Part shown: positions 18,381 through 21,327 of the stretch, piece after piece
Numbering within the stretch: position 1 is the first letter of the stretch
Layout: each line of letters opens with the position of its first letter
Source of the DNA: a bacterium
Lineage (GTDB): Bacteria; Auribacterota; Tritonobacteria; UBA1439
Reading direction: 5' to 3'
DNA length: 64,000 bases
NCBI GenBank assembly: GCA_028716845.1
Contig: JAQUPF010000008.1
Location: 1 to 64,000 of the forward strand
Translations under genes and position numbers: made by a program
The notes under the pieces: model-generated
Told to the model about the DNA's origin: nothing
Seen by the model: only the letters and a program-made list of their open reading frames with translations
Databases searched by the model: none

Positions 18381-19273
18381 GGACGGCGGGGGACCGCGCG
18401 CGATTCATGGCGGCGGCGGCCGTCGCGGCGCTCCTCATCGCCGCCTTCTCCCTCGCCTGCGTCCTCACGAGCAGCGAGGCGCTCGCCCCGCAGCGGACGG
18501 CGTCGATCGCCGCCAGGATCCTCGGCGAGAGCCGGCGGGCGCTCGGCGACTCGTTCTGCGTCGAGGCGGACCGGTACTTCCACCGGGGGGTCCCGCACCG
18601 GCGGGAGCGCGCCTTTACCGACGCGATCGGGCGGCTGGCGGGGGTCGTCCGCCCGGCGACGCACGAGCACCTCTCCGGCGGCGACATCCGCGAGATGATG
18701 CCGTGGCTCCGGTTCGCCACCCTGATGGATCCCGGGAACGTCGACGCCTACACGGGCGCCGCCTTCTGGGTGGCGCGGGAGCACGAGGAGGGCCTCCCGC
18801 AGGCGCTCGCCGTCCTCGCCGAGGGGCGGCGGAAGAACCCGTACGACTACCGCATCCCGCTGCAGGAGGGGAACATCCTCCTCCACCACGGCGACGTCGA
18901 CGGGGCCGAGCGGGCGTTCGACCTCGCCCTCCGGCTCTGGCCCGGCGCGGAGCGGTGCCCCGAGGAGCAGAAGCGGCTCGACCGGTCGGCGCTGCTCAAC
19001 TACCGCGGCTTCGTCCACGAGCTGCGGGGCGATCCCGACGGCGCGCTCCGCTGCTACCGCGCCTGCCTGGAGGCGCGGCCGGAATCCGCCGAGCTGCGGG
19101 CGGTCGTCCGTGAGATCGAGGAGGGGACGCGGACGCGGGCGGAAGCGGAGGAGATCCTCCGCGCCGTCTTCCTCTCCGGCCGCCTCGGCGGCGAGGACAT
19201 GGAGTGCAGCCGGGTCGGCCACCACGATCATGCGCACGACCACGATCACGCGCACGACCATGACCACCACTGA
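18377..19273 (+). CDS. Membrane-anchored TPR protein with His/Asp tail
   Basis: A 298-residue protein with one N-terminal membrane segment (about 9-32), then TPR-like helical pairs (LRFATLMDPGNVDAYTGAAF, YRIPLQEGNILLHHGDVDGAERAF, LNYRGFVHELRGDPDGALRCYRACLEARPES). The last 17 residues, 282-298, are only His, Asp and Ala: HHDHAHDHDHAHDHDHH. Such tails bind Zn2+, Ni2+ or Co2+ in metal chaperones and transporters. It ends the operon that begins with a CDF-type metal transporter domain, and overlaps the permease stop by 4 bp. The TPR part probably docks it to a partner protein. Confidence 0.8.
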   Translation: MRTAGDRARFMAAAAVAALLIAAFSLACVLTSSEALAPQRTASIAARILGESRRALGDSFCVEADRYFHRGVPHRRERAFTDAIGRLAGVVRPATHEHLSGGDIREMMPWLRFATLMDPGNVDAYTGAAFWVAREHEEGLPQALAVLAEGRRKNPYDYRIPLQEGNILLHHGDVDGAERAFDLALRLWPGAERCPEEQKRLDRSALLNYRGFVHELRGDPDGALRCYRACLEARPESAELRAVVREIEEGTRTRAEAEEILRAVFLSGRLGGEDMECSRVGHHDHAHDHDHAHDHDHH

Positions 19274-19280
19274 CGGCCGC

Positions 19281-19600
19281 CGCGGATCAGACGAACCAAT
19301 TCACCACGGCTCAAAGAACCAATCCACCACGGATGTTCACTGATCAGTACGGATCAAACCACAGTTGAAAGTCGAAAGTTCAAAGTCCAAAGAGGATGGT
19401 GTTTCTGCCGCGGCAGGCACCCTGAATCTGCTGCGATCCAATCCGTGATAATCCGTCAATGATCCGTGGAGATCCGCGGCTCGTGGTTCATTGTTCCGCC
19501 GCGGGTGGCGCGATGGACGAAGTACGAACGACGACAGACGCGCTGCGGTATGATCCGTGCATATCCGTGGTGCGGAGTTCTTTGTTCCTGCCGCGGATTC
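19281..19600 (+). repeat. Dispersed intergenic repeat, copy R1
   Basis: Non-coding, AT-richer block made of recurring words: GGATGTTCACTGATCAGTAC, CAGTTGAAAGTCGAAAGTTC, AGGATGGTGTTTCTGCCGCG, GATCCGTGGAGATCCGCGGC and GTGGCGCGATGGACGAAG. About 115 bases in its middle are identical by eye to the reverse strand of copy R5. It carries no credible gene; short reading frames across it are products of the repeat. Confidence 0.8.
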
Positions 19601-19604
19601 CATA

Positions 19605-19633
19605 TTGCGGGGCGCGCGGCCGCCCTGTATAAT
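19605..19633 (+). promoter_or_regulatory. Sigma-70-like promoter of the cobalamin riboswitch
   Basis: TTGCGG (19605-19610) and a perfect TATAAT (19628-19633) with 17-bp spacing. The predicted start near 19640 coincides with the first base of the riboswitch. Confidence 0.75.
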
Positions 19634-19639
19634 GCGGCC

Positions 19640-19813
19640 GGTTCTCTGAAAGATTCTCCAATCGAGGGAAAGCGGTGAGAAGCCGCTGCTGCCCCCGCAA
19701 CTGTAAGTGGCGCTGGTGATGTCCCCCGGTCACTGGCGCAGCGGATCGCGGAACGCGGTTGCTGCGCTGGGAAGGCCAGGCGGGACGCGGGACTGCCACG
19801 AGCCAGGAGACCT
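19640..19813 (+). ncRNA. Cobalamin (adenosylcobalamin-type) riboswitch
   Basis: Conserved landmarks appear in order: GGTTCTCT at the 5' end, GAGGGAAAGCGGTGAGAAGC, CCCCCGCAACTGTAAG, the CACTGG block, GGGAAGGCCAGGC, and the B12 box GAGCCAGGAGACCT (19800-19813). The architecture is that of class I cobalamin riboswitches. A terminator hairpin follows 45 bases later, so bound cobalamin is expected to stop transcription before the secreted protein gene at 19936. Confidence 0.93.
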
Positions 19814-19855
19814 CGTTCTGTGCTCCTCCGGGGTGCGAGGAGGCCTAGATGGCAT

Positions 19856-19897
19856 TGGGCCGGAACTCCGGTGTCGGAGTGTCCGGCCCCTTTTTTC
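19856..19897 (+). terminator. Intrinsic terminator of the riboswitch expression platform
   Basis: GGGCCGGA...TCCGGCCC with an inner ACTCCG/CGGAGT stem and a GTGT loop, followed at once by TTTTTT. This is a classic rho-independent terminator located between the aptamer and the coding region, so regulation is by premature termination. Confidence 0.9.
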
Positions 19898-19935
19898 GCG
19901 CGTCAGTCCCGCCGCACGGCGGGAGGGAGGGAACA

Positions 19936-21255
19936 ATGAGAAGGGCATTGATCGCGGCGATGCTCGCCGCGGGAATCTGCATCCCCGCCGCGGCGGCGGG
20001 GGACGGCGACGTCTTCGTCCACGCGGCCGTGTCGCTCGGCCGGAACCTCATGGGCGGGTTCGACTACCTGCCCGACGGGGACATCCTCGGGGTGTACTCG
20101 GACCCGCTCTTCGCGTCGAATGCGCGCGTGGTGCTGATCGACGCGAACGGCGACGGCGTGCCGGCGGGTCCAGAGACGAAGTACGACCTGGGGATGGTGA
20201 CGTGGGGCACCTTTCTCAAGGTGAGCCCGGACGGCACCACCGCCCTGTTCGGCGAGAGCATCAACTACACGATGTACTCCATGGATCTGGCGACGTACGC
20301 CGAGCCGAAGGTGCTGGAGGGAATCCAGGGGATGTACGACTGCGCCTTTCTGACCGACAAGCGATGCTACGTGAGCGCCAACCCGCCGGAGAACCCCGGC
20401 GAGTTCTCCACGACGAACAAGATCGCGCGCCTCGATCTGGATTCCATGCAGCGGAGGGATGTGGCGTCGATCGAGGGCACCTTCTCCGGGCCCATCGACG
20501 TGGACGATGAGGGAAACCTCTACTATGTGCGGGGGAGGGCGAACTTCCCCCCGCGGGCCGGCGACTTCAGCATTCTCAGGTTCGCGGCGGCCGACCTCGA
20601 GGGGGCGTACGAATCATCCACGCCGCTCGGGCCGGATGACGCGACGGTCATCGCGACGGACCTCGACGGCGGGCAGGACGTGGCGTGGCATTCCTCGGGC
20701 ACCCTGTTCGTCGCGGATGCGAACAACGGAAGGGTCTACGCCGTCAGGGCCGACGGCGCCGTCTCCGACTTCGCCTTCATCCCCGGCGACGCGGCCGAGG
20801 GCTTCTGGTTCCTCGCCTTTCACGGGAGGGATCTCCCCCTCGCCGGCAGGGCCGCGCTCTCATCGCGGCTCGCCGCCACCTACCAGCCCCTCAGCGGGCA
20901 GGGGGAGCCGGATCTCTTCATCCTGACGCCGCCGTTCATGCGGGGCGACCGGCTCGTCCTCACCGTCGAGGCGGAGGAAACCGAAGATCGGTTCGACGCC
21001 TACGCCGCGCTCGCGGGGCCCCGGGGACTCCTGTACTACATCTCGCCCGGCGGCGTCTCCGAGAGACGGGCCGCCTACGCGCGAAACGTGGACGGCCTCG
21101 AGGAGCCGTTCGGGGGGACGCTGCTCGACATGACCATACCGGCGAACGCCCCCTCCGGGGAGTGGATCCTCCACGCCGGCACCGTGCCGCCCGGGGCGGC
21201 CCCGTCGGTCGCCGGCGCCCTCGCCCACGACGCGGTGACGGTCGCCGTCGAGTGA
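19936..21255 (+). CDS. Secreted propeller-like protein under cobalamin riboswitch control
   Basis: A 439-residue exported protein: signal peptide MRRALIAAMLAAGICIPAAAA, no lipobox, then repeated beta-propeller-like units such as GGFDYLPDGDILGVY, FLKVSPDGTTALFG, GPIDVDDEGNLYYVRG and DVAWHSSGTLFVADANNGRVYAVRADG to about residue 310, and a C-terminal beta-sandwich-like domain (DRLVLTVEAEETEDRFDAYAAL onward). ATG 19936 follows GGGAGGGAGGGAAC. The riboswitch implies a part in cobalamin supply. Bacteroides BtuG is a surface propeller that binds B12 very tightly, so a functional analogue is possible; homology is not shown. No B12 transporter gene is adjacent. Confidence 0.75.
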   Translation: MRRALIAAMLAAGICIPAAAAGDGDVFVHAAVSLGRNLMGGFDYLPDGDILGVYSDPLFASNARVVLIDANGDGVPAGPETKYDLGMVTWGTFLKVSPDGTTALFGESINYTMYSMDLATYAEPKVLEGIQGMYDCAFLTDKRCYVSANPPENPGEFSTTNKIARLDLDSMQRRDVASIEGTFSGPIDVDDEGNLYYVRGRANFPPRAGDFSILRFAAADLEGAYESSTPLGPDDATVIATDLDGGQDVAWHSSGTLFVADANNGRVYAVRADGAVSDFAFIPGDAAEGFWFLAFHGRDLPLAGRAALSSRLAATYQPLSGQGEPDLFILTPPFMRGDRLVLTVEAEETEDRFDAYAALAGPRGLLYYISPGGVSERRAAYARNVDGLEEPFGGTLLDMTIPANAPSGEWILHAGTVPPGAAPSVAGALAHDAVTVAVE

Positions 21256-21291: not shown

Positions 21292-21327
21292 CCCGGATCA
21301 TCCGTGCGCGCGCACGGATGATCCGGG
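21292..21327. repeat. Perfect 36-bp palindrome
   Basis: Two 18-base arms, CCCGGATCATCCGTGCGC and its exact reverse complement, meet with no spacer, 20 bp before ATG 21347. The arm word GGATCATCCGTG resembles the GATCCGTG words of the dispersed repeats. No T-run follows. It could be a cruciform or terminator-like element, or the remnant of a repeat insertion. Confidence 0.8.

Follow-up and report, generated by a model that had tools for sequence, protein, structure and literature searches.

A cobalamin riboswitch leader and a single gene for a 439-aa exported protein lie on the forward strand of the window, i.e. the whole 64,000-nucleotide stretch of bacterial DNA that was analysed (Table 1). 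The leader begins with a sigma-70-like promoter that the initial annotation had called strong, which holds for the perfect -10 element but not for the -35 element; the latter agrees with the consensus at only three of six positions, and for this reason the promoter has no entry in the consensus promoter scan. The cobalamin aptamer that had been noticed upstream of the gene scores 76.2 bits (E 5.3e-17, cmscan) against the RF00174 gathering score of 31.5. As the match spans positions 45-169 of the 189 model positions, it takes in the aptamer core and the B12 box but not the outer model positions. It is one of two cobalamin riboswitches that a whole-genome search found in the source genome (2.68 Mb, 95%-complete). 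The terminator claimed ahead of the gene is a hairpin with a minimum free energy of -27.6 kcal/mol that is followed by six U residues, and none of 200 shuffled sequences folded equally well (z -4.8). It sits between aptamer and start codon as the expression platform of a transcriptional OFF switch, a direction of switching that we infer from this layout and from riboswitches described before (e.g. PMC12751083).

One open reading frame follows the leader. Its best start is the ATG at 19936 behind the ribosome site; an in-frame ATG at 19849, which is used in the mechanical ORF list, precedes the terminator hairpin and was rejected. The product consists of a signal peptide, a beta-propeller and a C-terminal beta-rich module. 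By inspection, the signal peptide has a basic N-terminus, a hydrophobic core and an AxA site and looks like a type I signal peptide, in line with the export that had been predicted, and there is no lipobox, as an Ile precedes the sole Cys of the signal peptide. A perfect inverted repeat downstream of the propeller gene and ahead of the next one (21347) is a possible transcript end.

Table 1. Features of the riboswitch-controlled propeller locus (window positions).
Feature	Position	Strand	Details	Basis
Sigma-70-like promoter	19605..19633	+	TTGCGG 19605-19610, 17-nt spacer, TATAAT 19628-19633	read from sequence
Cobalamin riboswitch aptamer core (RF00174)	19665..19813	+	B12 box AGCCAGGAGACC	cmscan and whole-genome search
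Rho-independent terminator	19857..19896	+	14-bp hairpin 19857-19889, U6 19891-19896	minimum free energy vs shuffles
Shine-Dalgarno-like site	19922..19932	+	GGAGGGAGGGA	read from sequence
Gene for exported propeller protein (P0001)	19936..21255	+	439 aa	translation; same-layout homologues in relatives
Signal peptide	19936..19998	+	residues 1-21, MRRALIAAMLAAGICIPAAAA	by inspection
Beta-propeller, NHL/SGL-like, apparently six blades	20005..20913	+	~residues 24-326	profile, AF2, Foldseek
C-terminal beta-rich module	20920..21252	+	~110 aa	matches in own genome; position at C-termini
Perfect inverted repeat	21292..21327	.	18 bp, no spacer, CCCGGATCATCCGTGCGC/GCGCACGGATGATCCGGG	repeat search

Which fold does the protein adopt? 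Searches of Pfam, NCBIfam and PDB with the single protein gave weak NHL and ScyE matches at most, and the Pfam NHL model reaches 10.4 bits on the window protein, which is below its gathering score of 20. Two family profiles, the first made of 11 members and the second weighted to distant members, were of more use when run against the PDB: the 11-member profile matches NHL propellers (PknD 1RWI with E 7.6e-8, Pizza designs down to 1e-13), and the second profile matches YncE (E 1.3e-4). On the window, the family profile match covers 20005-20883. An earlier full-length model had a pLDDT of 58, with beta strands predicted at low confidence in the C-terminal part, and the AlphaFold (AF2) model of the propeller domain, built from the window protein and one homologue, is better and of moderate confidence (pLDDT 69.8, pTM 0.77). 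Foldseek searches with both models retrieved mostly six-bladed propellers with E values of about 1e-8 to 1e-6, among them the lactonase RPA3624, Pizza6, regucalcin and PknD. In the model, the strand order likewise gives six blades, each about 45 residues long, with the first 70 and the last 40 residues being uncertain. At a model pLDDT of 70, the propeller is thus apparently six-bladed and of the NHL/SGL type. Fold prediction, which the initial annotation had proposed as a check of its propeller assignment, hence yields a propeller in two models, and the NHL and YncE profile matches agree with it. BtuG2 (3DSM) was not retrieved from the PDB by either profile up to E 10, and BtuG is not among the best 50 Foldseek matches of the propeller-domain model. 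This absence from the profile searches and the six-bladed nature of the closest propellers fit the earlier idea of an unrelated or distant BtuG counterpart.

The nearest solved structures in Foldseek include the lactonase RPA3624, regucalcin and Drp35, and B12 riboswitches control salvage enzymes and B12-independent isozymes too. The protein could in principle therefore be a secreted six-bladed enzyme (SGL, lactonase or strictosidine-synthase-like) that is needed when B12 is scarce, for instance to remodel or release corrinoids or as part of a B12-independent bypass. This appears very unlikely, as the structural alignments with these enzymes show only 11-18% identity, as no Pfam enzyme family matches the propeller, and as the homologues are found beside uptake genes and with surface-sorting tails, but not beside metabolic enzymes.

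More than 400 genomes were searched by sequence and profile, and the resulting family comprises 13 propeller genes at 12 loci in three phyla, one of the loci (G003-C13) carrying two tandem propellers. At all 12 loci with full-domain homologues, a cobalamin-riboswitch match is present in the leader on the same strand. Eight of these matches are above the Rfam gathering score (window 76, G002 86, G003-C16 75, G003-C13 79, G005 77, G026 115, G031 46 and G249 109 bits). The other four are below it, though correctly placed (RF01482, threshold 50: G013 38, G265 47 and G427 41 bits; RF00174, threshold 31.5: G386 24 bits). Hairpins with T-runs that can be taken as terminators occur in most leaders of the homologous loci. 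The initial annotation had suggested a search for other riboswitch-controlled homologues, and riboswitch linkage is indeed a property of the whole family. By a rough estimate, finding an above-threshold riboswitch by chance at most 1 kb upstream of the gene, and on its strand, in each of six of these genomes has a probability of about 1e-21. A match in G203 (E 9e-7) is partial, lacks a riboswitch and was not accepted as a family member. No relatives were found in viral contigs and plasmids, and a scan of genome contigs found nothing with the single protein and one named record with the alignment (CALLYX010000152.1, which is locus G005:C152). These linkage data already contradict the view that the protein is a generic surface or adhesion propeller that acquired its riboswitch by chance in the source strain. 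That view could point to the genes neighbouring the propeller gene in the window, which have no evident B12 role, and to the C-terminal module, which is common to many unrelated proteins; with riboswitches at 12 of 12 loci in three phyla, and with the sole weak non-member match being the one that has none, it retains practically no probability.

The C-terminal module deserves separate consideration. Residues 325-439 match about a dozen other proteins of the source genome, and in all seven proteins examined the module is at the C-terminus, while these proteins are otherwise unlike each other. It belongs to no Pfam family, and attachment or sorting is its probable role. In distant propeller homologues it is replaced by short FG-GAP-like repeats (G031, G013), by PEP-CTERM (G249, G386) or by a Por_Secre_tail (G265). 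As the module is common to unrelated proteins and is swapped out in distant homologues, what the family conserves is the propeller, and the variety of sorting tails suggests that the propeller protein is displayed on the cell surface. Of the “added beta-sandwich” in the initial annotation, the beta-rich C-terminal domain is thus retained at low prediction confidence, but it is a generic module of many proteins. It was also rejected as the B12-specific part: many proteins unrelated to the propeller have it, and the distant riboswitch-linked homologues lack it or have something else in its place.

Two of the 12 family loci, G249 and G386, adjoin B12 genes. In G249, which belongs to another phylum, a riboswitch is followed by genes for a BtuF-type binding protein, a FecCD permease (BtuC) and an ABC ATPase (BtuD), and then by a second riboswitch and the genes for a LIC_13355-like PEP-CTERM protein, for the propeller and for a pseudopilin. 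At the G386 locus, CobT and CobS are followed by an oxidase-like gene, a TonB receptor, a BtuF-type gene, a riboswitch-like leader, a pseudopilin, the propeller and a LIC_13355-like gene. At the window locus, no transport gene adjoins the propeller gene. The second riboswitch of the source genome is found elsewhere (G000:C6:83221-89140; L066 9222-15139) and precedes a gene for an 840-aa Ig (He_PIG)-repeat protein that ends in a LIC_13355-like domain. Downstream of it are genes for CbiQ, a fused double ABC ATPase and an ECF S component, which together constitute an ECF-type transporter. This locus probably encodes an ECF importer for cobalamin together with a surface binder of its own. In close relatives the second locus has the same layout, with the Ig-repeat/LIC_13355-like protein, CbiQ and the double ABC ATPase, and also DUF4430. 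The source genome contains 29 matches to B12-binding domains above the Pfam cut-off, and heavy use of cobamides is therefore probable. Seventeen of these 29 matches cluster on one 113-kb stretch (G000:C3:118827-231872), and the clustered proteins are probably cobalamin-dependent radical SAM enzymes.

The usual partner of the propeller is a LIC_13355-like domain (NCBIfam NF033170, LIC_13355 family). In G265 and G427, in another phylum than the window genome, propeller and partner domain are fused behind riboswitch matches of the AdoCbl class. Among 59 genomes, 9 of 11 matches to LIC_13355-like domains share a contig with a riboswitch match and lie within about 5 kb of it (LIC_13355-like loci: L066, L069, L072, L073, L093, L095, L101, L102, L104 and G055:C1:1489168). 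In both PDB searches with the partner, BtuH2 was the best match, though a remote one (E 0.038 and 0.0099); the lower value was obtained with a profile of ten LIC_13355-like domains against 7BIZ, and the next match of this profile has an E of 0.3. The profile match lands in the B12-binding C-terminal domain of BtuH2 and continues weakly further along. Within it, an invariant FENxF motif aligns with chain positions 299 (N) and 301 (F) of 7BIZ, which correspond to Asn399 and Phe401 of BtuH2 if a numbering offset of 100 is assumed, and these two residues are B12 contacts (PMC8941943). In BtuH, Ig repeats are followed by the B12-binding domain, and this is also the layout of the LIC_13355-like Ig-repeat protein. 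The riboswitch linkage and the remote likeness to BtuH2 suggest that lipoproteins of the LIC_13355 family are candidates for B12 binding. The window propeller does not itself resemble BtuH, but its relatives in G265 and G427 have a BtuH-like domain in the same chain. That the partner domain belongs to DUF4465 was considered and dropped, as there is no Pfam match.

Propellers commonly serve as platforms for protein interactions. The propeller might therefore take part in B12 uptake without binding the vitamin, as a lid, scaffold or partner for a BtuH-like protein, a receptor or a transporter, especially as the LIC_13355-like domain is fused to it or adjoins it and is, given its likeness to BtuH2, the more probable binder. 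We regard this as unlikely, albeit less so than an enzymatic function. No LIC_13355-like gene is beside the propeller gene in the window genome, G002, G003 (C16) or G005, and a pairing with such a gene is therefore not obligatory; moreover, in Bacteroides it is the propeller BtuG2 itself that binds B12, with femtomolar affinity (PMC6143338).

The explanation that we consider probable is that the exported acidic NHL-type propeller is made when cobamides are scarce and captures cobamides for uptake. When cobamides are plentiful, B12 would bind to the nascent leader, the terminator would form, and transcription would stop; when they are scarce, the propeller would be made and exported. The propeller would then bind the cobamide beyond the inner membrane, probably at the cell surface and most probably with its acidic face, as BtuG does, and would hand it over to a receptor or transporter, either alone or together with a BtuH-like partner. 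In the source genome, the uptake machinery could plausibly be that of the second riboswitch locus, with its Ig protein containing a BtuH-like domain and its ECF transporter. The window propeller has a pI of 4.2 and a net charge of -24, and acidity is common to the propellers of the whole family (pI 4.05-4.39). The face with which the BtuG2 propeller binds B12 carries negative charge (PMC10404256), but as many unrelated proteins are acidic, acidity is a weak point in the argument for B12 capture. A further-reaching and more tentative idea, to which we give somewhat less than an even chance, is that NHL-type propeller and BtuH-like LIC_13355 domain form a two-part, riboswitch-regulated cobamide-capture kit in at least three phyla outside Bacteroidota, sometimes as one chain that would close round the vitamin, and that B12 binding by its propeller evolved independently of BtuG.

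How does the family relate to known systems? Like BtuG (BtuG2/BT1954, PDB 3DSM), it consists of exported acidic beta-propellers under B12 riboswitches, and it is found at loci of the same kind, with B12 uptake genes and BtuH-like proteins. BtuG is a seven-bladed surface lipoprotein that is tied to BtuB and has been reported from Bacteroidetes only (PMC6143338, PMC10404256), whereas the present family resembles six-bladed NHL/SGL propellers and has other C-terminal tails, and the window protein has no clear lipobox. No sequence homology was detected between the window family and propellers of the BtuG/PF16819 type (profiles up to E 10; Pfam with sub-threshold NHL only). The best reading of these comparisons is that the family would work like BtuG without being BtuG, as a functional counterpart outside Bacteroidota. 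NHL six-bladed propellers (PknD sensor domain 1RWI/1RWL, TRIM71, Pizza6) are the best profile matches and among the best structure matches, but they have no known B12 role, and the window protein remains below the Pfam NHL cut-off. Proteins of the BtuJ/DUF4465 type (IPR027828) are also riboswitch-linked, secreted B12 binders; they are widespread and often have extracellular sorting tails, and in one cluster 40% have PF16819 propeller neighbours, but they are jelly-rolls and thus differ from the propeller in fold (PMC12751083, PMC13398666). In all proteins examined, neither the propeller nor its partners had a DUF4465 Pfam match.

In the literature searched, which included few subscription journals, there is no earlier description of a riboswitch-controlled NHL propeller or PEP-CTERM protein, and the family probably represents a hitherto undescribed kind of protein that catches vitamin B12 at the cell surface. 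Extracellular B12 binders (BtuG, BtuH, BtuJ) have so far been found mainly in Bacteroidota, with the exception of DUF4465 proteins. If our explanation is true, little-known uncultured phyla have a second propeller family that is apparently independent of BtuG but regulated like it and provided with a similar partner, and propellers that capture B12 at the surface evolved more than once. The explanation would also assign a likely function to two families without annotation, the present propeller and the LIC_13355-like domains, which are named after a Leptospira lipoprotein, and it gives a short, testable list of proteins.

Some further observations concern the surroundings of these genes. In three genomes from two phyla, a pseudopilin-like gene (N_methyl, DUF1559-like) occurs with the propeller near a B12 riboswitch (L014 226-981, L095 4347-5096, L102 6867-7667; H-X9-DG CTERM detected in L095). 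Just upstream of the leader in the window, a TPR-like protein has a His/Asp-rich C-terminal tail, GHHDHAHDHDHAHDHDHH (19215-19273), which is likely to bind metal. The intergenic region at 19325-19596 contains an imperfect repeat array that is based on ATCCGTG / CACGGAT and TGTTCCTGCCGCGG with a spacing of about 91 nt, and the 7-mers of this array are found again in the window at about 34.3-38.6 kb and 44.2-50.5 kb.
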